From a virus: a stretch of DNA of 48,142 bases. The stretch covers positions 1-48,142 of IMG/VR virus record IMGVR_UViG_3300042922_001026, one strand, 5' to 3'. The notes below the pieces were generated by a model that made no database searches, was not told the DNA's origin, and worked only from the letters and a program-made list of their open reading frames with translations. Made by a program: the position numbers and the translations under genes. Shown here piece by piece: positions 20,450 through 48,142 of the stretch. Every line of letters starts with the position of its first letter. Position 1 is the stretch's first letter.

Positions 20450-21191
20450 GGGTCTTCCGTCCTCTCCTCTTGCGGTCGGCTGCACGCCGGGCTTCCTCGG
20501 CGAACAGCTCATCGGTGCTGGCTTCGCGCGCCGCGGTGGGCGCCCAGCCGTCCGGGTAGATCGGCAGCCACGGTGTGGCCTGGTCGAGCACCCGATCGTA
20601 TTCGGGGTAGAAGGCATCGTTCGCGGCGTGCGTGGCGTTGTGGCACTCCGAGCAGATGATGTGCGTGTTCTCGGTGGTGCCGATGCCGCGGCTGACCTTC
20701 TCGTTGTTGAGCGTGTTCTTGTCTGGACCATGGTGCAGGTCGGTGGCCGGGTTGTTCACGCAGCCGATGATGCCGACCGGCATGAACTCGCCGCCCGCGT
20801 TCGCCTTCCCCGCCCATTCGCAGACCTGGCCGACGGCGATGGGGAACATCTTCGCCTGCCGCTTGCGGCCGGTGGACTCGGGATCGACGAGCTCGCCGAT
20901 GTTCTTGGTCGAGCCCCAGGCGTCGGGGTGGATGTAGCCCGAGTCGCCCTTTTTCGGCTGGGGGCGCTCGCCGGGGTCATCCTGCAGGCCGGTGACCTCG
21001 GTGCCGGGGCCGAGCCCGTACAGCTCGGCGAGCGCGTTGTCGGCCTGGTGGATGGCGTACAGGGCTTCGCGGAGGGTAGCCTGGCCGCCACAGCAGCACT
21101 CCTCCTGGTCCTCCAGGATGCCGAGGGTGTGGCATTCGTCGTGCAGACCGACGACGCACCCCGGGCAGGCTTCAAGAATACTGACCGACAT
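20391..21191 (-). CDS. HNH-type nuclease-like protein, 266 aa
   Basis: The HNH part lies at about 120-190: C124, C144, the core DLHH (D151, H153, H154), then N175, a C180/C183 pair, and H184 and H188, consistent with a zinc-stabilised beta-beta-alpha-metal fold. The N-terminus is also Cys-rich (C9, C12, C20, C32, C33, C34). The C-terminus is a basic Arg/Lys tail. It could be a packaging-associated, repair or homing nuclease. Its place behind the primase-polymerase (20-base overlap) favours a replication or recombination role, by inference. Confidence 0.75.
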   Translation of the reverse strand: MSVSILEACPGCVVGLHDECHTLGILEDQEECCCGGQATLREALYAIHQADNALAELYGLGPGTEVTGLQDDPGERPQPKKGDSGYIHPDAWGSTKNIGELVDPESTGRKRQAKMFPIAVGQVCEWAGKANAGGEFMPVGIIGCVNNPATDLHHGPDKNTLNNEKVSRGIGTTENTHIICSECHNATHAANDAFYPEYDRVLDQATPWLPIYPDGWAPTAAREASTDELFAEEARRAADRKRRGRKTRGRNSRARGDVDTSIDGDD

Positions 21192-23763
21192 ACTGGCCTC
21201 CGTAGGTGGGGAACGGGCTCGGCACGATCGCCTGCCGGACGCCCCAGAAGAACTGCTCGTCGCCTGCGCGCTGCAGCTCGGGGTGGATGGTGAGCAGCTC
21301 CCGGGCGAACTTGGGTTCGGACAGGATCGGGAAGATGCGGTTCATGTTCGCCCACTGCTGGTAGTCCTGGTATACCGATGTGCGAGCCGTTGCCATGTCG
21401 CCCTCCATCACCAGGCGGGTGTCGACGTAGCGCGCCAACGCGTCCTCCTCGATCCGGTAGCGCTGGTTCGCGGCCCGCACCGAGTCGGGCACCTGCTCGC
21501 CGTGCGCGAGGTAGTCGGCGGTGCCGTCCAGCATCCAGGCCAGCACCTGCGGCCCCTCCTCGGCGATGATCATCCTCGCCAGGCCCTCCACCTGCCGCTC
21601 CTCGGGGACCGGGTTCGGCATGTCGATACGCCGGAACCGGCGCCACCAGGCGGGGCCACCGGCGGTCAGCCCGGGCAGGTGGTTGAACAACGCCATCAAG
21701 CTCGCCGTGGTGGGGAACTCGGAGCTGTTCTCGTACAGCAGCCGGGCCCGGGTGGTGCCGTCACCGGTGAGCGCCTTCACGAGCTCCTCGTTGAACTTCG
21801 CATTCCGGGGCACCTCGGAGGCGATGGCGAGCCGGACGCCGCGCAGCTGCGCGATCTGCTCCGGGTGCTGATCGGAACGGGTCTGCACCAGGAACTGCTG
21901 GCCGAGCTTCATGCCGTAGCCGCCGAGCACGCCGAGCGCGACGTCGGCCATCTGCGACTTGCCCTCACCGCCGGACCCGAGGAACACGGGGAAGTGCTGC
22001 ACGACCAGCTCGCCGATCAGCGCGATCCCGAACACGCGCTGCACGTACCGGATCATGGCCGGCTCGTGCTGGAATGCCCAGTCGAGCAGCGCCTGCCAGC
22101 GCGGTGCCGGCCGGGTCCAGTCAGGGGCGACCCCGGTGATCTTCGTGTTGCGGTCGGTGAGCGGACTGGCCTGCCGGAATATCCGGGTGCGCAGGTCGAA
22201 GATGCCACCGGGGGTGACCAGCTCGTACGGGTCGGCGTCCATCTGGTGCGGCAGCGCGAGCACCGCCGGGATCGTCTCCGCCCACTTCAGGGTCGCGGTC
22301 ATCCGGGCGCTGTTCAGCGACTGCTGCAGCCATTTCTTCTCCTCGACGTCCTGCGAGGCGGCCAGGCGCTGCGTGAACAGGTCCTTCAGCGCCTCCCGGT
22401 GCGTGCCGGCAGCGTCGAGCGCCCAGCGTGCGCCGTCCCACATGTGCCAGCCGATCCCGGCGACGTTCAGGAACCGGCCGGCGATGGACTGCGCGAACAG
22501 CTCCGCGTTGCCGGAGTCGGTGTGCGCGGAGAAGATGAGCCGCTGCTGCGCCTGCGGGTCGATCTGCAACGCCAGGGACCCGGCGGCGCGCGGGCTGACG
22601 TCGAGCCCCGGCGTGGCGACGGGCTGCTTGGAGAAGATCGAGATGACGGGCGCGTCCGGCAGCGTGGCGGCCGGGTCGGGCTCGACCGGGATGACCTCAC
22701 GGGCCCCGCCGAGGAACATCTCGGTGAAGTCGGCGTGGGTGTGCGAACGCATCTCGTCGATGAGCTTGGCGTTCGACCAGCGGCTGGCCTGCTCCGCGCC
22801 CCAGTGCATGGCGGCGGCGTACTCGTGCGGTTGCGGCTCGCGGACGGGGGTCTGCGACCGGCAGAGGTCCTCGTGCCGGGCTTCGAGCAGGGCCCGCAGC
22901 TCGCCGTAGCTGCGCTCGGTGAGGCAGCCGTACCGGACCATGCCGTGCAGCTGCGCGGCCCGGGCGAGCATCCACGGGTGCCGGGCGGTGACCTGCTGTT
23001 GGGTGATCTCGTGCCGGATGGTGCCGACGAAATCGCAGTCGTGGGTGGCCCAGTCGACGTCCGCCCATTCGATGACGGGGTCGGTGCCGATCTCCCGCGG
23101 CTGCGCGTCGATGCCCCAGTCGTCGAACACTTCGGTGAGCTCGGCGACGGTGAACGGTGCCCAGCCGTCGGGGAAGTCCGCGGTGACCGGCTTCGGGTGC
23201 TCCAGGTCCTTCCAGTTCACCGAGCCGGGCACCCGGAAGATGCGGGGCAGGTCGAACAGGGAGTCGACGACGCCGCCGTTTGCGGCGGCGAGCCGATCGG
23301 CGAGCACCTTGAACCGGGCGGCGATAGTGGACACGGCGGTGCGCGAGTCGGCGTCGGTAATGAATGCGTCGCTGATCGGCCAGTATGGCTGCAGGCCGTT
23401 GCCGGTGGAGACGATCGCGGCGGGCGGCACCCCGAGCGCGGCGGACAGCTCGGCGATGAGCTGCTCGGCGGCGGGGATCGACCCCATGCCGGTGTCTTTG
23501 AAATCGATGTCGACGTACAGCGCGTTGAGGCGGGTGATGTCGCGGGCGCTGGAGCGGCCGGCTGGCTTGGCGTAGCTGGTGGCGTTGATCTCGAACCAGA
23601 CGTGCCGCTGGGTGGCGGTGCAGTTCGCGATGAAGTCGGCGAGCTCGGCCCGGCCGACGGGCGCGGCAGCGAACGAGGTGGCGTCACCCGACGCGAGCCG
23701 CAACACGTCTTCGGTGCGGTCCAGTCGGGCGAGCAGCTGGTCGAACTGCGTCGGGTCGGTCAC
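21172..23763 (-). CDS. Primase-polymerase / SF3 helicase fusion, 863 aa
   Basis: The N-terminal archaeo-eukaryotic primase-like domain shows DID (D85, D87 in LYVDIDFKD), a motif II STGNGLQPYW (119-128) and a motif III region DLPRIFRVPGSVNWK (171-185). In motif II the usual His appears replaced by Gln125. The C-terminal D5/SF3 helicase has Walker A GSGGEGKS (596-603), acidic E650 (LAIASE), sensor N693 and a basic WRRFRRI (707-713). It would synthesise primers or short DNA and unwind the template at the replication fork. No other DNA polymerase was recognised. The start is GTG, 10 bases after a CTCAGAGAA leader. Confidence 0.88.
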   Translation of the reverse strand: MTDPTQFDQLLARLDRTEDVLRLASGDATSFAAAPVGRAELADFIANCTATQRHVWFEINATSYAKPAGRSSARDITRLNALYVDIDFKDTGMGSIPAAEQLIAELSAALGVPPAAIVSTGNGLQPYWPISDAFITDADSRTAVSTIAARFKVLADRLAAANGGVVDSLFDLPRIFRVPGSVNWKDLEHPKPVTADFPDGWAPFTVAELTEVFDDWGIDAQPREIGTDPVIEWADVDWATHDCDFVGTIRHEITQQQVTARHPWMLARAAQLHGMVRYGCLTERSYGELRALLEARHEDLCRSQTPVREPQPHEYAAAMHWGAEQASRWSNAKLIDEMRSHTHADFTEMFLGGAREVIPVEPDPAATLPDAPVISIFSKQPVATPGLDVSPRAAGSLALQIDPQAQQRLIFSAHTDSGNAELFAQSIAGRFLNVAGIGWHMWDGARWALDAAGTHREALKDLFTQRLAASQDVEEKKWLQQSLNSARMTATLKWAETIPAVLALPHQMDADPYELVTPGGIFDLRTRIFRQASPLTDRNTKITGVAPDWTRPAPRWQALLDWAFQHEPAMIRYVQRVFGIALIGELVVQHFPVFLGSGGEGKSQMADVALGVLGGYGMKLGQQFLVQTRSDQHPEQIAQLRGVRLAIASEVPRNAKFNEELVKALTGDGTTRARLLYENSSEFPTTASLMALFNHLPGLTAGGPAWWRRFRRIDMPNPVPEERQVEGLARMIIAEEGPQVLAWMLDGTADYLAHGEQVPDSVRAANQRYRIEEDALARYVDTRLVMEGDMATARTSVYQDYQQWANMNRIFPILSEPKFARELLTIHPELQRAGDEQFFWGVRQAIVPSPFPTYGGQYVGQYS

Positions 23764-23799: not shown

Positions 23800-23836
23800 C
23801 GGGAGCGCCCGACCAGCATACGGTCGGGCGCTCCCG
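23800..23836. terminator. Perfect 15-bp hairpin between SSB-like and primase-polymerase genes
   Basis: CGGGAGCGCCCGACC (23800-23814) pairs fully with 23822-23836 around the loop AGCATAC. TTTCTT follows on the plus strand, so as a classical terminator it points against the local genes. For minus-strand transcripts it would be a hairpin without a U-run, perhaps an attenuator or RNA-processing site. Confidence 0.75.
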
Positions 23837-29308: not shown

Positions 29309-29538
29309 CGCTCTGCCCCTGACCCGTGCGTTTCCGGGTGACGCTCCCAATGGTCCTCGCCCATCACGAGGCAGTCCTCGCAGTAGTCCTGCCCGTCGAT
29401 GCGCATCCAGCCGCACGCCTCGGCGCGCATGAGGGCGTCGGCCTCCTCGGACCATGCGGCGTAGTCGTCGCCCTCGGTGGACTTCTCACCGCAGCAGTCG
29501 CACGTCAGCCAGTAGTAAGGCTTGCTCTGCACGCTCAT
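29305..29538 (-). CDS. Zinc-ribbon protein, 77 aa
   Basis: CDCC (13-16) and YCEDC (52-56) provide two Cys pairs. A helix between them (YAAWSEEADALMRAEACGW) gives the usual ribbon-helix layout of small phage regulators. ATGA overlap with the upstream HTH gene. Confidence 0.7.
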   Translation of the reverse strand: MSVQSKPYYWLTCDCCGEKSTEGDDYAAWSEEADALMRAEACGWMRIDGQDYCEDCLVMGEDHWERHPETHGSGAER

Positions 29539-30107
29539 CGTTCGTCCTCTCGTCCTGAAACTGTCGATACTGGGTTGACGTGGCCCCGCAGCGGCATGCT
29601 CAGCACGTCGGCGAGGTGGTACTCCACACCACGGCCCAGCGGGCGCACCCGCACGGCCGGGTTCAGCAGCCCGTCGACCCGGTTCTTGCGGAGCAGGGCA
29701 CGGGAATGGTGGTAGAAGGGGCTCAGCCGGGCCGCGAGCGACTCATCGACCCAGACGTCGACAGCTTCCGCCTCGGTAGCCGCCTGCTCGACGGTCACCA
29801 GGTCGAGCTGCAGCCGGCGCACCAGCGGCAGCCGGTTCCAGTTGGCCGTCAGCCCCGTCTGCTCCGCGAACGTGAGCACGTCGTTCGCGGACAGCCGGAT
29901 CGCCTCGTTCAGCAGCCCGGGCGGTTTCACGGCGGGCAGCTGCACCCGAGCCTCACCGACCAGGCGGCCACTGCGCACCCAGCTCCACACCGTGGAATGG
30001 GACACACCGAACGCGGCGGCCACGTCGGCCATGCCGAGCCGGTACTGCGCCGCGGTGGCTACCAGCTCGGGCGACGCCCCAGCTGGGACAGTGATGGGTT
30101 GGACCAT
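29535..30107 (-). CDS. Helix-turn-helix DNA-binding protein, 190 aa
   Basis: Residues about 22-50 (YRLGMADVAAAFGVSHSTVWSWVRSGRL) form a MerR/excisionase-like winged HTH: start helix, turn at GVS, recognition helix STVWSWVRSG. The C-terminal 130 residues are unlike known domains and contain a second Ser/Arg-rich helix (YHHSRALLRKNRVDGLL). It could be a regulator or an origin/recombination-site binder. The start lies 3 bases after the upstream stop. Confidence 0.7.
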   Translation of the reverse strand: MVQPITVPAGASPELVATAAQYRLGMADVAAAFGVSHSTVWSWVRSGRLVGEARVQLPAVKPPGLLNEAIRLSANDVLTFAEQTGLTANWNRLPLVRRLQLDLVTVEQAATEAEAVDVWVDESLAARLSPFYHHSRALLRKNRVDGLLNPAVRVRPLGRGVEYHLADVLSMPLRGHVNPVSTVSGREDER

Positions 30108-35149: not shown

Positions 35150-35162
35150 GGCTGGGGTCCTG

Positions 35163-35171
35163 TTCTTTGAG
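35163..35171 (-). promoter_or_regulatory. Start-associated sequence, variant CTCAAAGAA
   Basis: One-base variant, 13 bases before the ATG of the 115-aa gene. Confidence 0.5.
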
Positions 35172-35194
35172 CGGGTCGGTCGGTGTGGGTCTAG

Positions 35195-35329
35195 TCAGGC
35201 GGCGACGTAGATGACGAACACCTGTCCGCCGGGCGTGCGCGGGTACTGGCGGGTGCGGGTAAAGAAGTTCGCACCTCTCGGGCCGAATGTGCGGCTGACG
35301 CGGTGACCGGGCTCATATAGGGCGAACAT
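35195..35329 (-). CDS. Small basic protein, 44 aa, unknown
   Basis: Starts MFALYEPGHRVSRTFGP and ends GGQVFVIYVAA. Arg/Phe/Tyr-rich middle (ANFFTRTRQYPRTP). Supported by its CTCAGAGAA leader with GGAG and by its length. Function unknown; possibly a short regulator or host-takeover peptide. Confidence 0.55.
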   Translation of the reverse strand: MFALYEPGHRVSRTFGPRGANFFTRTRQYPRTPGGQVFVIYVAA

Positions 35330-35341
35330 GGGGTGCTCCGA

Positions 35342-35350
35342 TTCTCTGAG
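35342..35350 (-). promoter_or_regulatory. Start-associated sequence CTCAGAGAA
   Basis: Exact copy, 12 bases before the ATG of the 44-aa gene. Confidence 0.6.
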
Positions 35351-35461
35351 TGGTGGTGCGGTGTGGGTCTCAATGTAGTTGCAGGGAGCGTCGATTGCAA
35401 GCTTGCTGTCAAAATATACTGGTAGTTTTCTGCTAGCTTCCAGCCAAGCAAAATGGCGCTG

Positions 35462-35803
35462 GACGCTTGATGCTATCTGACAGAAATTTGAGCTGCGAAA
35501 TGGGAGCTATCTGCAACTTTTTCGCATAATCCCGCGGGAGGTGTCAAGTAGCATCAAGCGCCCAATCGGAATCCTTCGAAATTCTTGGATTCCTAATAGT
35601 TGTTATCGGGCTAATGGCAATCGTAATTGCTTTGATAACTACGTCGATAGCTATTAGGTGGATAACAAAGTTGTTGTTGAAAATTTTGGAAGATTCGGAT
35701 TTGACGCTTGATGCTACTTGATACCAGCCGCGTGAATCCGCGAAAAAGTTGCAGATAGCGTCTATTTTGGGGGCTGGATTCTTGTCAGCTAGCATCAAGC
35801 GTC
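35462..35803. repeat. AT-rich 342-bp imperfect palindrome with four 20-22-bp repeats
   Basis: Repeats with core GCTTGATGCTA occur four times, alternating in direction: 35462-35482 (plus), 35542-35561 (minus), 35703-35723 (plus), 35783-35803 (minus). The halves match as inverted copies about the centre at 35632/35633, in exact register over roughly 120 bases on each side. The 20-mer at 35506-35525 is the exact reverse complement of 35740-35759. The region is clearly AT-rich against its GC-rich surroundings. No gene is confidently seen. Candidates: replication origin, plasmid-like control region, structured RNA, or a captured mobile element. See findings. Confidence 0.9.
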
Positions 35804-36110
35804 GAAAAGGTGAGGATTTATAGAGAATGAGCATTCTTTTATATCCGATATGCAGAAACCAGGCCCAATCACTGTATGACAGGACGGAGCATCGGAGATG
35901 AGGAGCGCCAACCTCCGGCGCTTGCACGCGTCGACCAGTATGCATTTGAGGGCCCCGCGTTCCGGTTCCTGGGTATCTTCCACGGAGCCCGGATATCCTG
36001 AATGCCGATATTCACGTATCCGAGATACTGTGCTCACGGTGCCCTTGGCCGGCTGCCCGGGCGCGCAGCTGGCCGGCCACGCGATCCACCCGTTACGCCA
36101 GGGGGCATGG
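35804..36110. other. About 300-bp control-like gap without a convincing gene
   Basis: Holds AT-rich sequence next to the palindrome, the CCTGTCATACAGT site at 35871-35883, and a GTATC-cga-GATAC inverted repeat at 36016-36028 near a GATATCC palindrome. The only long frames in either direction lack codon bias and a ribosome site. Likely regulatory. Confidence 0.5.
35871..35883 (-). promoter_or_regulatory. CCTGTCATACAGT site upstream of the palindrome
   Basis: TACAGT would be the -10 for leftward transcription through the palindrome into the early genes at 35.3 kb and beyond. The leader would be about 540 bases long. No clear -35. Confidence 0.45.
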
Positions 36111-36148
36111 CGGAGCCCCCGAGCGTCGTGGTCAGCTCGGGGGCTCCG
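36111..36148. terminator. Perfect 14-bp hairpin after the 36-kb operon
   Basis: CGGAGCCCCCGAGC (36111-36124) pairs with 36135-36148 around a 10-base loop. It lies 3 bases past the stop of the 23-aa reading frame on the minus strand. No T-run. Confidence 0.7.
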
Positions 36149-36151
36149 GTG

Positions 36152-36223
36152 TCAGTGCGGCAGAGTGTGCCAGATGATGAGGGCGGCGTAGGTCAGGACA
36201 CACCCGACGACGAGCCGCCTCAC
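36152..36223 (-). CDS. 23-residue membrane micropeptide
   Basis: GTG start overlaps the preceding stop as GTGA. The peptide is one hydrophobic helix (RLVVGCVLTYAALIIW) ending HTLPH. Translation coupling and the hydrophobic character support it, but its size limits certainty. Confidence 0.4.
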   Translation of the reverse strand: MRRLVVGCVLTYAALIIWHTLPH

Positions 36224-36408
36224 CAGCGAATCAGCTGGCCGCCGACGTCGGTGAACGAGCCCCCCTGCCCGTTGCCCTGGACGTCGGCGTACCAGGTGCA
36301 GTTGCTCGAATCCTCGGTGGCGCAGGGTTGGGCCAGCTTGACTCCAGTGAGGGCGAGCACGGTCAGCAGCGACAGCGCCGCGATGCGAGCCAGGATGCGT
36401 ACGTTCAT
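36220..36408 (-). CDS. Small exported Cys protein, 62 aa
   Basis: An N-terminal signal-like helix (RILARIAALSLLTVLALTG, about 4-22) is followed by CATEDSSNC and a mature part with ADVQGNGQGGSF. The pattern matches small exported proteins common in actinophages, of unknown role. Starts in an ATGA overlap with the 64-aa gene. Confidence 0.7.
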   Translation of the reverse strand: MNVRILARIAALSLLTVLALTGVKLAQPCATEDSSNCTWYADVQGNGQGGSFTDVGGQLIRW

Positions 36409-36599
36409 GCGTCACGTCCGTAGCCGTAGCCGTCACGCTCAGCGATGATGGCAGCGGCGGAATCCCTGTGGCAGTACAGGATCACCCCGCCCTCTTCCTC
36501 ATCCACGATGCCTACCGTGTCGCCTCCGTACGGCATACCCACGTCAGGCTGGTCCTGTACCACGCTGTCGTGAACCCAGAACCGGTCTACCTCGTTCAT
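36405..36599 (-). CDS. Small acidic protein, 64 aa, unknown
   Basis: Begins MNEVDRFWVHDSVVQ, with an acidic EEEGG near 34-38 and a Gly/Tyr C-terminus ending YGRDA. ATGA overlaps with both neighbours. No family recognised. Confidence 0.6.
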   Translation of the reverse strand: MNEVDRFWVHDSVVQDQPDVGMPYGGDTVGIVDEEEGGVILYCHRDSAAAIIAERDGYGYGRDA

Positions 36600-36739
36600 G
36601 CGTCACCGCCCATCGCCCGGTACTGCTCGCGTGCCTCGAACCATGACCGCTTCAGCTGGCGCTGCTGCTTGCGGGCCAGGGTCAGGCGCCGTGCCTCGGG
36701 GCCACGCTTACGGTCACTGTGCTTGCGGATGCTGGACAT
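36596..36739 (-). CDS. Small very basic protein, 47 aa
   Basis: Starts MSSIRKHSDRKRGPEARR and is Arg/Lys-rich throughout (LTLARKQQRQLKRSWFEAREQ), suggesting nucleic acid binding. An in-frame longer start upstream is less likely because this ATG follows a CTCAGAGAA leader. First gene of the four-gene operon. Confidence 0.6.
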   Translation of the reverse strand: MSSIRKHSDRKRGPEARRLTLARKQQRQLKRSWFEAREQYRAMGGDA

Positions 36740-36751
36740 GGGGTCCTGCCT

Positions 36752-36760
36752 TTCTCTGAG
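36752..36760 (-). promoter_or_regulatory. Start-associated sequence CTCAGAGAA
   Basis: Exact copy, 12 bases before the ATG of the 47-aa gene. A GGTAGC/GCTACC hairpin (36760-36776) lies just upstream. Confidence 0.55.
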
Positions 36761-36906
36761 GTAGCAGCAAGCTACCAGCATCAGGGCAGCAAGGGGGCAA
36801 GGGGGCCAAGCGATCCATTCGTTACCCCAGGTGGGGTGCGCTCTCATTCACATACTCACTCGATACCTACCCCTCCCCCTGGGGTGGGGGTGCACGTATC
36901 CATGTC

Positions 36907-36945
36907 GTCGGGGTCAGACCACCCCCCGTATATATATGCCCCGAC
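36907..36945. repeat. Inverted repeat around TATATATA
   Basis: Perfect 7-bp arms around a 25-base AT-containing loop in the divergent region, a possible operator over a minus-strand -10 box. Confidence 0.4.
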
Positions 36946-37019
36946 TCCCTGCTCCCACATTGACCCAGCCTCAAAGTAAGTGACAGGATCGATGCACAGC
37001 ACCCATCACTCATATGTGC

Positions 37020-37031
37020 TAGGATCGCAGT
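37020..37031 (+). promoter_or_regulatory. Leaderless-type -10 before the tandem HTH gene
   Basis: TAGGAT (37020-37025) ends 6 bases before the ATG at 37032, the spacing of actinobacterial leaderless transcripts. AGGA inside it could instead serve as a weak ribosome site. No clear -35 match. Confidence 0.5.
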
Positions 37032-37547
37032 ATGAGTACGAAGGACAACCCAGTGCGCCTGCACCGCCTGCGGGTGGGGCTGTCGATTGCCGAGCTGGCT
37101 CGCCGTCTGGGCGTGCACCGCAGCTCGTTGGTCGCGATCGAGGTGGGCCAGACCCGCCACCCGACCGAGGAGACCCTGCATGCCCTGTCTCGGCATTTTC
37201 AGGTGCCGAGTTCGCAGCTGTCCGCGGAGCTGGAGGCGTGGCATGCCCGGCAGGTCCCGGTGTGGACGATCCCGCAGCGCCGCATCCTGGCGCAGGGCGC
37301 CAGCCAAATCCCGTTGGCGTACCCGTCGTTCCGGGCGTGGCGTCAGCACCTGGGGGTACCGTACGCCCGGATGGCGGCGGCGATGGGCGTGTCCCGGAGC
37401 TCGCTCAGCGAGTACGAGGCGGGCCGCCGGCAGGAGATGCCCGACAGTCTGATGGCCGGCCTCATGCGGCTGGGTCTGCCGGCCGATGTGGTGCTCGCGC
37501 TCGCGGAGCTGCCGCCGTCGACGCCGGCCACCGACGAGGAGGAGTGA
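37032..37547 (+). CDS. Tandem XRE-family HTH regulator, 171 aa
   Basis: Two Cro/C1-type HTH domains: about 8-63 (LHRLRVGLSIAELARRLGV and HRSSLVAIEVGQTRHP) and about 98-155 (FRAWRQHLGVPYARMAAAMGV and SRSSLSEYEAGRR). A linker holds WTIPQRRIL. Tandem HTH proteins usually bind two half-sites or act as compact repressors. It opens the plus-strand block and sits next to an operator-rich gap, so it may control the early/late switch. The chosen ATG follows a leaderless-type -10. Confidence 0.85.
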   Translation: MSTKDNPVRLHRLRVGLSIAELARRLGVHRSSLVAIEVGQTRHPTEETLHALSRHFQVPSSQLSAELEAWHARQVPVWTIPQRRILAQGASQIPLAYPSFRAWRQHLGVPYARMAAAMGVSRSSLSEYEAGRRQEMPDSLMAGLMRLGLPADVVLALAELPPSTPATDEEE

Positions 37548-37549
37548 TC

Positions 37550-37876
37550 ATGACCCCGCTGGTGTGGTCGCTGGTGCTTGCCCTCTTCGGCCTTGTCGGC
37601 CTGATTCTCGCCGGCCGGCAGCTAAAGGTGGGCTGGCTGATCGGCGCGTTCGCACAGGTGCTGTGGCTGGTGTACGCGCTGCTGACCGGGCAGTACGGGT
37701 TCATCCTCACCGCGGTGGCGTACGCGGCCGTGTACCTGCAGAACTGGTGGCGCTGGCGCCGCAGCGAGCAGGCCGCGAAGGTGCAGGCGGCGCGCCGTGA
37801 GGATCTTGAGCTGGCGGAGGCGCGCGCCACGCTGGCCCGGATGCGGCGCCCCCGCCGCCTAGGCTCTGACGCATGA
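37550..37876 (+). CDS. Membrane protein, 108 aa
   Basis: Hydrophobic segments at about 5-24 (WSLVLALFGLVGLILAG), 30-48 (LIGAFAQVLWLVYALLTGQ) and 50-66 (FILTAVAYAAVYLQNW), then a basic C-terminal tail (ARREDLELAEARATLARMRR). A GGAGGAG site precedes the ATG, which is 2 bases after the regulator stop, so the two are coupled. Function unknown; holin-like topology is possible but the lysis genes lie elsewhere. Confidence 0.7.
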   Translation: MTPLVWSLVLALFGLVGLILAGRQLKVGWLIGAFAQVLWLVYALLTGQYGFILTAVAYAAVYLQNWWRWRRSEQAAKVQAARREDLELAEARATLARMRRPRRLGSDA

Positions 37877-38631: not shown

Positions 38632-39330
38632 ATGGGCACCCTGCCTCCCACGCCGACCCTCGGGCTGGTGCTCCCCGACCCGGGCACGGGGCAGCCGTAT
38701 TCGCGGGCGACGGAGAACGGCTGGTGGACCAGCGTCGACACGGCGTTCGCCGCCGACCGGGCGCGGATCGGCGTGGTGGAGGCGGCCACGAAGCTGGTCG
38801 TCCCGCCGTCCGTGGTGGTCGGTTCGGGGACCGCCGGAGTTGACGCCAACGGTCTGATCACGTTCACGAACGTGAACAACAACGCGGTGCGCATCAACCA
38901 GGCGTTCATGGACCCCGAGGGCGTGTACGACTACGTCATCGACGTGCCGGTCGTGACCGGCACCGACGCGACCAGCGACTTCTACCTCTCGCTGGCGGAG
39001 GCCGGTGTGGTGCGGGGCGCCCTGACAGGCCGCAACGAGAACCACACCGACACGATCTCGACGGGCGCATTCGCGCTCGGCGCGCAGATGAACATCATGG
39101 AGAATTTCGCTGCGCTGAACTCGGGCTTCCGGGTGCACGGCCGGGTGTTCGAGGCGGGCTCGAACCAGCATCGCACCCAGCTGCGCTACGAGTTCCTCGG
39201 CGGCGACGGCGGTGTGACGTGGCGCCAGGGGTTCATCATGAACACGGTGGGCCAGTACGACCGCGACTTCCGGTTCGGTCTCGTCACCGGCGTGATGACC
39301 GGCACGGTGAAGATCAGAAAGGTGTTCTGA
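38632..39330 (+). CDS. Probable tail or decoration protein, 232 aa
   Basis: N-terminal Pro-rich segment then PYSRATENGWWTSVDTAF (near 22-39), a pattern of actinophage minor tail/fibre proteins. The body is beta-rich, with ALTGRNENHTDTISTGAF near 130-147 and VTGVMTGTVKIRKVF at the end. Probably a virion surface protein, perhaps a C1q-like jelly-roll. GAGGAG site 3 bases after the upstream stop. Confidence 0.6.
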   Translation: MGTLPPTPTLGLVLPDPGTGQPYSRATENGWWTSVDTAFAADRARIGVVEAATKLVVPPSVVVGSGTAGVDANGLITFTNVNNNAVRINQAFMDPEGVYDYVIDVPVVTGTDATSDFYLSLAEAGVVRGALTGRNENHTDTISTGAFALGAQMNIMENFAALNSGFRVHGRVFEAGSNQHRTQLRYEFLGGDGGVTWRQGFIMNTVGQYDRDFRFGLVTGVMTGTVKIRKVF

Positions 39331-40427
39331 TGACGCGCACCCCGGCAGGCGCATTCGACTGGGCATGGAACGAGGCGCACGCGCCGACGATCCGTTCCAA
39401 CTGGGTCGGCTGGTGCATGGCACTGGTGTCCTGGGCGGGGCTGTTCCGGTTCTTCGAGTCGGCGATCGTCGGCGGGAACCTGTCCGGCCCGATGCGCGGC
39501 GACTACGCGAACGCCCCCCGCGGCGCCATCATCTGGTGGTGGGGCGTCGGCGGCTTCGGCCACGTCGCGTTCGTCGTCGAACAGGGGCCCGACCCGCTGC
39601 TGCTGATGGCCTCCGGTGGCTGCACCACCCCATGGGGGCACGGCATCGGCCTGATCCGGCTGTCCGAGTACCAGCGGAAGTTCGGCTGGCCGCTCAGGGG
39701 CTGGACGCTCCGGGTCGGCACCGAGACCCTCGATTTCTCCTCCACGCCATCCGGCGGCGGGGGCACCCCGATCCCCACCCCTGAACCGGAGGAAGACATC
39801 ATGGCGAGCATCGCTGAGCTCGAAGCTCTGCTGGAGAAGCGTTTCGGCCCCACCCCGGTGGAGCTGATCCGCGACGCGACCCGCCGGGAGCTCCGCTACC
39901 GGATCGTGTACGACCACGCCGGCACGGGCGCCGCGTTCGACGACCCGCGGGTGACGCGCGCCGTGCTCGCCCGGGAGGCCCGCGGCGGCGACCAGCTCGA
40001 CCTGATCGTGCTGGATGCCCGGCCGGCGGCCCGGACCGCCACCGTCGAAGCGAAGAAGCAGCTGATCCCGTTGCAAGTGCCGCCCGGTGAGCAGCCAGCC
40101 GGCATGCACACGGTGTCGTTCCTGCGGTTCGTCGACTCGATCGGCGGCAACCACCCGTGGGGCGAGTTCATCGAGAACGCGTTCGAGCTGAACGGCGGCG
40201 ACACGGTGCAGGTGCGCACCGAGGGCGAGCACCCCTACCCCAGCCGGCAGCATGTGTGGGCCGACGACCGCCCGGTGACGATCTACCTGGACGGCGAGAA
40301 GGTGCAACGCTTCGGCACGTTCAACGGCCAGAAGGTGGCCTACATCGGCGGCCAGCCGCAGCCGCTGACCGCCCAGCAGGTGGCCCGCGCCGACAGCCAG
40401 GTCGGCGGCGGCCAGGCCTGGTACTAA
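39330..40427 (+). CDS. Endolysin, CHAP-like cysteine peptidase with C-terminal domain, 365 aa
   Basis: Residues 20-110 form a CHAP/NlpC-like domain with catalytic C29 (WVGWCMALV) and H78 (GGFGHVAFVV). A Ser/Gly/Pro linker (about 139-155, PSGGGGTPIPTPEPEED) leads to a C-terminal domain (158-365) of unknown fold, probably wall-binding or oligomerising. The start TGATG overlaps the upstream gene by one base. A GGAGGA site precedes the internal in-frame ATG at 39801, so a 208-residue C-terminal product is likely. It would cleave peptidoglycan peptide bonds at lysis. Confidence 0.82.
   Translation: MTRTPAGAFDWAWNEAHAPTIRSNWVGWCMALVSWAGLFRFFESAIVGGNLSGPMRGDYANAPRGAIIWWWGVGGFGHVAFVVEQGPDPLLLMASGGCTTPWGHGIGLIRLSEYQRKFGWPLRGWTLRVGTETLDFSSTPSGGGGTPIPTPEPEEDIMASIAELEALLEKRFGPTPVELIRDATRRELRYRIVYDHAGTGAAFDDPRVTRAVLAREARGGDQLDLIVLDARPAARTATVEAKKQLIPLQVPPGEQPAGMHTVSFLRFVDSIGGNHPWGEFIENAFELNGGDTVQVRTEGEHPYPSRQHVWADDRPVTIYLDGEKVQRFGTFNGQKVAYIGGQPQPLTAQQVARADSQVGGGQAWY
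39801..40427 (+). CDS. Internal translation product: endolysin C-terminal domain, 208 aa
   Basis: GGAGGA (39788-39793) lies 7 bases before the ATG at 39801, in the endolysin frame at residue 158, exactly after the flexible linker. The sequence GGAGGAAGACATCATGG closely matches the site of the following gene (GAAGGAGACATCATGG). Known endolysins of other phages use such internal starts to add free binding subunits to the holoenzyme. Here the product is predicted from sequence. Confidence 0.6.
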   Translation: MASIAELEALLEKRFGPTPVELIRDATRRELRYRIVYDHAGTGAAFDDPRVTRAVLAREARGGDQLDLIVLDARPAARTATVEAKKQLIPLQVPPGEQPAGMHTVSFLRFVDSIGGNHPWGEFIENAFELNGGDTVQVRTEGEHPYPSRQHVWADDRPVTIYLDGEKVQRFGTFNGQKVAYIGGQPQPLTAQQVARADSQVGGGQAWY

Positions 40428-46518: not shown

Positions 46519-47114
46519 GAGCGCTCCTCGAACTCGGCCGGGAACGCCTTGTCGTCGAGCACGCGGAACGAGCCGTCGTCGAGCTTCACGATCCAGTCAC
46601 CCGCCCACACGGCGGGGCCGTTCACGGCGACCATCTGCAGGTGGTCGGCTTCCTGGTCCGTCTCGGCGATGTACCGGAACGTGGCCGACCCGACCGCCCA
46701 GCGGACGATCTCGACGGCGGAGTCACGGCCGCCGCGGAACTGGATCGCCTCACCGTTGCGGGGCCGGGTGCGGACGGTGACCGCCGACTCGGGCTTCGGC
46801 ATGCTGGCGGCGAGCTCGCGGCCGTCGGCGACGACCTGCACCTGGTATTTGCCGGATGCGGTGATCACGAAATCGTCACCCCAGGTGGCGGTGACGAGGA
46901 TCGCGGGGATACCGGTGGGTGGCAGCTCCGGGATGGTGTTCATGACGGTCGCTCGGAACGGCTCAGCGACGCCCTCGCCGGAGATCATGACGGTCGACCC
47001 GGGGGCGATGTCCTCGAACTTCTGCGGGTAGTCGCTGGGCTGCTTGGCGACGCCGAGGCCCTGGACGGGGGAGATGCCGGTGCCGGGCAGCGGCGCGTTC
47101 ATGGCGAGGTTCAT
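46515..47114 (-). CDS. Hypothetical protein with phage 'GDWIVK' domain, 199 aa
   Basis: The N-terminal 100 residues are beta-rich. The C-terminal part (AIQFRGGRDSAVEIVRWAVG near 117-136 and GDWIVKLDDGSFRVLDDKAF near 173-192) matches a common phage module of unknown function, with a GDWI-(K/R)-G-type strand ending in a Glu-rich tail. Coupled by ATGA to the Acb2-like gene. Confidence 0.68.
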   Translation of the reverse strand: MNLAMNAPLPGTGISPVQGLGVAKQPSDYPQKFEDIAPGSTVMISGEGVAEPFRATVMNTIPELPPTGIPAILVTATWGDDFVITASGKYQVQVVADGRELAASMPKPESAVTVRTRPRNGEAIQFRGGRDSAVEIVRWAVGSATFRYIAETDQEADHLQMVAVNGPAVWAGDWIVKLDDGSFRVLDDKAFPAEFEERS

Positions 47115-47416
47115 TCGGGGGCTCCATTCATGGGGTGGGTGTCCTCGTCGACGATCGACCGAGCGTGGGGGGTTTCTTGGGGCGGCCGGGGCAGGCGCGA
47201 CGCCGCGTTGTCGGCGAGGATGATCGCCTTGTTCGTCCAGAACAGGGCTTCCTCCAGGTGGGTGAACGCGAGCGACTTCTCGCGCGAATCGGGCGCGACC
47301 TCGTCGATCATGTCGGCGAAGGCTGCGAAGTCGGCGCGCCAGCGGCGCATCTCTCCTGCGACCTCCTCACTGGGTGCCTGGGTCTCGAACCGCTCGCGCA
47401 GTCCTTTGGTAGCCAT
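47111..47416 (-). CDS. Acb2/Tad1-hairpin-like protein, anti-CBASS candidate, 101 aa
   Basis: The central hairpin region reads FAAFADMIDEVAPDSREKSL (about 30-49) and AFTHLEEALFWTNKAII (about 50-66). The SREKSLA.T.LEEA.FW.N.AI pattern is the hallmark of the Acb2/Tad1-hairpin family. Known Acb2 proteins sequester cyclic nucleotides and so stop CBASS signalling. The N-terminus is less conserved than in typical members, and the C-terminal third (about 70-101) is a Pro-rich extension. It starts 1 base after the membrane gene stop. Function here is inferred from family. Confidence 0.8.
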   Translation of the reverse strand: MATKGLRERFETQAPSEEVAGEMRRWRADFAAFADMIDEVAPDSREKSLAFTHLEEALFWTNKAIILADNAASRLPRPPQETPHARSIVDEDTHPMNGAPE

Positions 47417-48142
47417 CAGCGGGTGCTCCGTTTCTTCGTGGTGGTGGTCGGTTTCCGCGCCGCGGGGACCGCGGCGGGCTCGGGTCGCTCCGGCTTCACG
47501 GCGAGCCGGGCGAAGAACTTGAATGTGACGAGGGTGAGGATCGGCCAGGCGGCGATGAACGCCGCGCCGAACCAGTGCGCGAGCGCCGGCTCGGCGGGCA
47601 TCTCCTCGACGGCGTGCACGAAATTGATCGCCGCGGCGGCGACGGTGAGCAGGATCGCGACCGCCCAGGGGGCCATGGTCGACTCGTGCCGGCGCCGGAA
47701 CACGAGGATCATCGGGGTGAGCACGACGAGCGGCAGTTCCAGGATGCAGGGGATGATCCACCAGAGCTGCTCGGGCAGCGGGGTGTACACGCCGAACGCA
47801 CGCTGGAAGGCGAAGCTGGCGGCGAAGGTGAAGATCGGCAGCAGCAGCGAACCGGCGAGCACGCCGTAGAACACATGGATGTTGTCCGGGTTCACCCGGG
47901 CGGCAGCGCCGGTGCGGCGCTCGCGCGGCGGCTTCCGCTTCAGCTGCTCCAACTCGCCGCGGAGCTCGCCGATCGCAACGTCGACGCTGGCAAACGACGC
48001 GTTGTAGAGCAGCACCGGGTCCACGGGCGGCTCGTCGAAGGTGCGGGCCGCGCTCGACCACTTGCGGGGGAAGTCGACGTCGCCACGGTCCAGCTCGGCG
48101 AGGATCTTGGCGGCGGCGTCCGTCGGCGAGTGCACCTCGTCG
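47416..48142 (-). CDS. Four-helix membrane protein, DUF2637-like (partial at window end)
   Basis: The full 251-residue protein is read by joining to 1-156. A cytoplasmic N-terminal coiled coil (about 60-80) and basic linker precede four hydrophobic segments (about 99-121, 136-158, 168-186, 200-222), then a Pro/Lys/Thr tail. The topology resembles DUF2637/Spd-type membrane proteins of actinobacteria and their phages. It is the first gene of the operon that includes the Acb2-like gene, so it may contribute to superinfection exclusion or defence evasion (inference). Confidence 0.7.
   Translation of the reverse strand, partial: DEVHSPTDAAAKILAELDRGDVDFPRKWSSAARTFDEPPVDPVLLYNASFASVDVAIGELRGELEQLKRKPPRERRTGAAARVNPDNIHVFYGVLAGSLLLPIFTFAASFAFQRAFGVYTPLPEQLWWIIPCILELPLVVLTPMILVFRRRHESTMAPWAVAILLTVAAAAINFVHAVEEMPAEPALAHWFGAAFIAAWPILTLVTFKFFARLAVKPERPEPAAVPAARKPTTTTKKRSTR
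48016..48142. repeat. 127-bp terminal direct repeat, right copy
   Basis: Identical to bases 1-127. See the left copy. Confidence 0.97.

Follow-up and report, generated by a model that had tools for sequence, protein, structure and literature searches.

Mirror-symmetric repeats in the largest noncoding gap of an orphan phage

The window analyzed here is the whole of a 48,142-base virus record from an orphan tailed phage with a genome of 69% GC. Its terminase shares 27%-31% identity with the nearest terminases, those of Arthrobacter phages such as Jasmine, Cellulosimicrobium phage DS1, and Microbacterium phage Shocker, and searches of IMG/VR with the terminase, the primase, and a plus-strand gene returned no close phage kin. 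The largest noncoding gap of the window is also its most AT-rich, and oppositely oriented repeats are stronger there than in any other noncoding gap of this genome. It houses an imperfect palindrome with the following parts and surroundings.

35351-36148, unstranded: largest noncoding gap of the window, 798 bp, from a GC3-based coding scan (runner-up gap, 358 bp)
35372-35400, minus: weak promoter-like TTGCAA-17-TACATT directed toward the minus-strand genes starting at 35331, read from the sequence (8 of 12 consensus bases, under the scan threshold)
35462-35803, unstranded: whole element, imperfect palindrome of 342 bp, found by self-match to the reverse complement
35462-35583, plus: left arm, 122 nt, 78% complementary to 35682-35803 without gaps
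35462-35482, plus: box A1 GACGCTTGATGCTATCTGACA, proposed initiator site, matrix score 36.4
35506-35525, plus: box B GCTATCTGCAACTTTTTCGC, with an exact inverted copy at 35740-35759
35542-35562, minus: box A2 GGCGCTTGATGCTACTTGACA, proposed initiator site, matrix score 34.8
35584-35681, unstranded: AT-rich core separating the two arms, 98 nt, 37% GC; a proposed unwinding element on the basis of composition
35682-35803, minus: right arm, 122 nt, gapless partner of the left arm (78% complementary)
35703-35723, plus: box A3 GACGCTTGATGCTACTTGATA, proposed initiator site, matrix score 37.0
35740-35759, minus: second copy of box B, exact inverted match to 35506-35525
35783-35803, minus: box A4 GACGCTTGATGCTAGCTGACA, proposed initiator site, matrix score 35.3
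36113-36147, minus: strong GC hairpin read from the sequence, likely the terminator of a short group of minus-strand genes on the right

Each arm consists of a box A, the 20-mer box B (the same sequence in both arms), and an inverted box A. The core GCTTGATGCTA is exact in all four A boxes, whose orientation alternates (+ - + -) and whose spacing is equal in each pair (84 nt start to start). In a matrix scan of the window, the best-scoring site outside these four reached 16.5, which is the chance level. The inner A-box copies carry CTTGAT repeats with a 10-bp period, and the palindrome ends sharply at 35462 and 35803 in perfect 14-bp inverted termini. The original prediction, made from the letters of this DNA, had described the four alternating repeats, the exact inverted 20-mer, and an AT-rich region in a GC-rich genome; all three descriptions hold, the 342 nt having 44% GC. 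Its further statement that the halves match in register for about 120 bases on each side of the center, with almost no length differences between arms, applies to the outer 122 nt of each half. Beside the center, the inner 49 nt per side are weakly symmetric and require small gaps.

The AT richness extends beyond the element, since its flanks have 47% and 39% GC, and a second noncoding gap of this phage (24830-24940) has 47% GC; low GC is therefore not by itself proof of foreign DNA. To the left of the palindrome, a long series of minus-strand genes starts at about 35331.

Several other genes of the window deserve mention. A SNF2-type helicase (PF00176; 26097-27677, minus strand) finds its nearest relatives among Gordonia and Mycobacterium phage proteins at 31% identity, a kinship different from that of the terminase and thus indicative of a mosaic genome. 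The minus-strand gene at 47111-48061 encodes a 316-amino-acid protein in which a long N-terminal part precedes a C-terminal Acb2/Tad1 hairpin domain (PF24729, E 7.5e-17), an anti-defense domain resembling cyclic-nucleotide sponges. Two overlapping plus-strand frames each match a family: 36980-37876 a PnuC-like NMN transporter (PF04973, residues 195-273) and 37032-37547 an HTH_3 regulator. The two genes are probably consecutive, with the first starting later than 36980. A MerR-like protein is encoded at 29535-30107.

The palindrome is a real and rare structure

Aligned without gaps to its own reverse complement, the 342-nt stretch matches at 222 of 342 positions. Its self-complementarity score of 292 compares with a maximum of 52 among 100 shuffles of a 539-nt region, and an ungapped palindrome scan that gave 68 here found nothing scoring at least 26 in the remainder of the window or in a further 1.29 Mb of fetched viral sequence. 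The same type of scan found no such palindrome in three distant phages related through their terminases (27%-31% identical). Folding as RNA, a check suggested along with the original prediction, gave z = -16.8, as any palindrome of this kind would, with the plus strand folding better than the minus strand (-182.9 versus -155.7 kcal/mol).

We found no second copy of the element in this genome and no relatives by blastn against phage and plasmid records. Two-box patterns gave no match beyond chance in IMG/VR or GTDB, and box B as an exact 20-mer is absent from IMG/VR. With an 18-base box consensus, the two collections yielded either nothing or scattered matches at chance level; those in GTDB numbered seven, in unrelated phyla, against approximately seven expected by our own estimate. 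A 14-mer, too short a query, matched 119 stretches of IMG/VR, none with a second matching arm, and a relaxed 9-mer pair matched 82, of which 0 were palindromic beyond the pattern itself. These searches covered GTDB by exact pattern and IMG/VR by exact and relaxed patterns, so diverged copies would escape them. A literature search with the motif string returned nothing relevant. The palindrome is thus real, rare, and unique in sequence within the collections searched. An assembly or amplification chimera is an unlikely source, because the arms of a chimera would be expected to be nearly identical and here are 78% complementary.

Two known kinds of palindromic or paired sites were considered and set aside. 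A protelomerase telomere of the N15 type requires a perfect central palindrome, and the center is the least symmetrical part of this element. As for an integrase attachment site, the proteins scanned include no integrase; an excisionase-like HTH gave a weak match (E 0.005).

Several homologous helicase-primase genes are followed by two-orientation repeat clusters

The window encodes one protein that we propose as an initiator.

21172-23763, minus: helicase-primase of 863 amino acids with D5_N (Pfam, E 1.7e-20) and DUF5906 domains; PHROG 2478, DNA polymerase/primase, E 1e-159

The DUF5906 match in this protein is sub-threshold. The D5_N + DUF5906 combination was present in 7 of 7 primases scanned, namely those of phages A2, phiadh, GMA4, Fionnbharth, Amgine, MalagasyRose, and a Listeria phage. 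In the Lactobacillus phages A2 and phiadh, a replication origin is annotated just 3' of the primase gene, and these origin gaps contain 7 and 8 copies, respectively, of one 9-mer in both orientations. Comparable clusters follow the primase gene among the actinophage homologues, in GMA4, Amgine, and Milly, so that across the five phages 7-11 copies of one 9-10-mer occur in both orientations, above shuffles where tested (11 copies in GMA4 and 8 in Amgine, against shuffle maxima of 4-5). Clusters in Fionnbharth, MalagasyRose, and the Listeria phage are weaker, at 4-5 copies, and none was found after the homologous primase genes of Shambre1 and IndyLu or after that of the window.

Two of these stretches are of interest in their own right. 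The gap after the GMA4 primase gene (39131-39800) is unannotated and holds 11 copies of GTGGCACCC in both orientations; the cluster singles it out among all noncoding gaps of GMA4, and it is likely the origin of that phage. In phage Milly, eight copies of the 10-mer AATCTGTCCA, again in both orientations, lie directly after the primase gene (from 22401 onward) where gene 73 is annotated, and the sequence there resembles an origin more than a gene. Upstream of the window primase gene, a short gap contains a perfect 15-bp hairpin with a 7-nt loop (23800-23836).

Experimental precedent for such an arrangement comes from Cch2, the D5_N helicase of SCCmec, which binds direct-repeat iterons located after its own gene through its C-terminal domain, as do the Rep proteins of SaPIs (PMC7581432).

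A candidate replication origin and its alternatives

We consider the palindrome a possible cis-acting replication origin of this phage, a variant of the iteron type, and assign this reading a probability of roughly 0.42. It draws on the repeats and the distances between them, on the AT-rich core, on the location in noncoding DNA, and on the homology that the helicase-primase shows. In the mechanism we envisage, oligomers of the D5_N helicase-primase (21172-23763), or a helper protein, would occupy the four GCTTGATGCTA boxes, of which each arm carries two. Between the arms, which face each other, the 98-nt AT-rich core would be melted, allowing helicase and primase to load and forks to start. 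Box B may be the site of a second protein.

Among the four options offered by the original prediction (an origin recognized by the primase-helicase, a partition-like site, a structured noncoding RNA, or a captured transposon-like relic), the origin is the best supported, in that homologous primases are accompanied by two-orientation motif clusters in noncoding gaps; elsewhere, however, those gaps adjoin the primase gene, and here the element does not. Because no cluster follows the window primase gene, an origin of the A2/phiadh kind would be expected at another place in this genome, and the palindrome, which is noncoding and AT-rich and has long identical boxes in pairs that face each other, is the outstanding candidate. 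Weighing against an origin are its distance of about 12 kb from the primase gene, which all the comparison origins adjoin, and the presence of merely four boxes in alternating + - + - orientation rather than in a cluster. The examples of Shambre1 and IndyLu indicate that the rule of a cluster after the primase gene is not universal. GC skew gave no decisive origin signal in the window. DnaA boxes are no more numerous in the window than expected by chance, and the element has a single near box, at 35657; a DnaA-dependent origin, which requires a cluster of such boxes, was accordingly rejected. The partition-like site found no support either, since the proteins scanned include no ParA/ParB-like match.

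The sharp ends at 35462 and 35803, the perfect 14-bp inverted termini, the 122-nt arms, and the absence of a transposase gene would also fit a decayed relic of a small non-autonomous MITE-like element that landed between genes, with the arms as terminal inverted repeats containing inner repeats and the core as filler or what is left of a small gene. The contrast between an AT-rich element and a GC-rich genome, the lack of a member in the three phages related by terminase, and the state of the arms (about 22% diverged, with mismatches weakly clustered: runs p = 0.08, longest run p = 0.11, lowest 22-nt window p = 0.007) are in keeping with this history. The transposon-like relic of the original prediction thus retains its terminal inverted repeats, but the flanks share nothing beyond AAAA, which amounts to no target-site duplication, and no further copy came to light in the genome, in phage and plasmid records, or above chance by pattern in IMG/VR or GTDB. 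Nor does the composition need a foreign origin, given the GC content of the flanks and of the other gap. We regard a relic as unlikely. A different possibility, which we think rather improbable, is that a repressor or activator of the phage (for example, a Cro/CI-type HTH protein such as that encoded at 37032-37547) recognizes the four boxes, which would so control the minus-strand early genes from 35331. The site has the likely terminator (36113-36147) on one side and, on the other, the point where the long minus-strand gene series begins. The gene of an HTH_3 regulator is found at a distance of 1.2 kb, and the boxes are of a size suited to protein binding, with the 10-bp periodic CTTGAT in the inner copies. 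An operator or looping region would account for the position and the box size but not for the extent of the symmetry: regulation has no need of 122-nt arms, an exact 20-mer in each, and a 342-bp mirror layout. In addition, no box above chance occurs near the gene of the HTH regulator itself, and the adjacent promoter is weak by consensus.

The remaining explanations concern transcription of the element and involve an open frame across its center.

35548-35720, plus: stop-free hydrophobic frame VASSAQSESFEILGFLIVVIGLMAIVIALITTSIAIRWITKLLLKILEDSDLTLDAT, ending at a stop codon, with no standard start at its 5' end and an ATG at 35614

The plus strand could be transcribed as a hairpin, with or without translation of this frame into a small membrane peptide that may be toxin-like and sequestered, or may serve in exclusion. 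The best 25-residue mean hydrophobicity in the frame is 2.84, a value reached by 0 of 500 shuffles and by 24 of 3,000 natural viral windows with similar GC content (0.8%). The more stable folding of the plus-strand RNA points in the same direction, as do the transitions that break the symmetry, which keep G-U pairs in that RNA in 14 cases versus 5 (p = 0.03, one test among several). This G-U bias, however, equals the plain G+T excess of the plus strand, and Rfam gave nothing near the gathering score; the structured RNA option keeps a weak signal, confounded by strand composition. The original prediction had noted hydrophobic peptides near the center and seen no ribosome site for them. The plus-strand frame is indeed very hydrophobic and has a Shine-Dalgarno-like GGGAGGTG ahead of it (35536-35543). 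A standard start is lacking, however: the in-frame codon 6 nt past GGAGG is GTA, and the sole ATG (35614) has no Shine-Dalgarno sequence. Measured against type I toxins, the frame thus offers a transmembrane-like peptide (2.84) and lacks a start codon with a ribosome site. The peptide matches no family, tblastn found no relatives better than E 3, and most of the changes that distinguish the arms are non-synonymous in the hydrophobic frame. The promoter-like CCTGTCATACA (minus strand, approximately 35873-35883) that had been proposed to drive transcription through the element did not survive a consensus promoter scan of 35150-37100, which found none. A transcribed hairpin therefore strikes us as improbable, if less so than the idea that the palindrome is an undescribed mirror-symmetric element whose transcript would be a hairpin RNA of 342 nt with a membrane-peptide frame inside it, and in which folding, binding at the DNA sites, and peptide expression are linked; the latter we treat as a long shot.

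If the palindrome is a replication origin, phages with D5_N helicase-primases can keep their origin far from the primase gene, as one large mirror image of paired sites. Loading of an initiator on two facing sets of sites would become directly testable, and the arrangement could serve as a marker for locating origins in phages without known relatives. If the element is instead a relic, it is a minor curiosity.

Comparison with known systems

MITEs resemble the element in being short and AT-rich, with long inverted termini and no transposase inside; they differ in that here there is no target-site duplication and no further copies were found. The iterons of SaPIs lie on both sides of an AT-rich stretch and are oppositely oriented. 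The origins of SaPIs and of SCCmec, the latter through Cch2, further offer iterons bound by a self-loading initiator helicase, as we propose for the boxes of the palindrome, and both Cch2 and the Rep protein of SaPI5 are annotated with D5_N (PMC7581432). These origins differ in lying directly downstream of the rep gene and in their shorter iterons. Streptococcus phage Sfi21 carries, in its replication module, a 302-bp origin-like noncoding element (PER) that was reported to be active when supplied in high copy (PMC6356513). The likeness, drawn from its description, is that of a short stretch of noncoding phage DNA serving as an origin, as proposed here; the host and the sequence are unrelated.

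The GMA4 gap at 39131-39800 belongs to a Gordonia phage with a full-length homologue of the window primase (34% identity) and likewise presents one motif in both orientations, but it has 62% GC, adjoins the primase gene, and is itself a predicted origin. The origins of A2 and phiadh differ from the palindrome in following directly after the primase gene, in their 9-10-nt motif in 7-8 copies, in having no long in-register palindrome, and in their unrelated sequence. Common to both are a noncoding gap (390-510 bp in A2 and phiadh), one short motif in both orientations, and a cognate, homologous D5_N + DUF5906 primase in the genome. On this evidence, the element may work like an A2/phiadh-type origin, as a candidate member of that type which departs from it in the defining adjacency to the primase gene.
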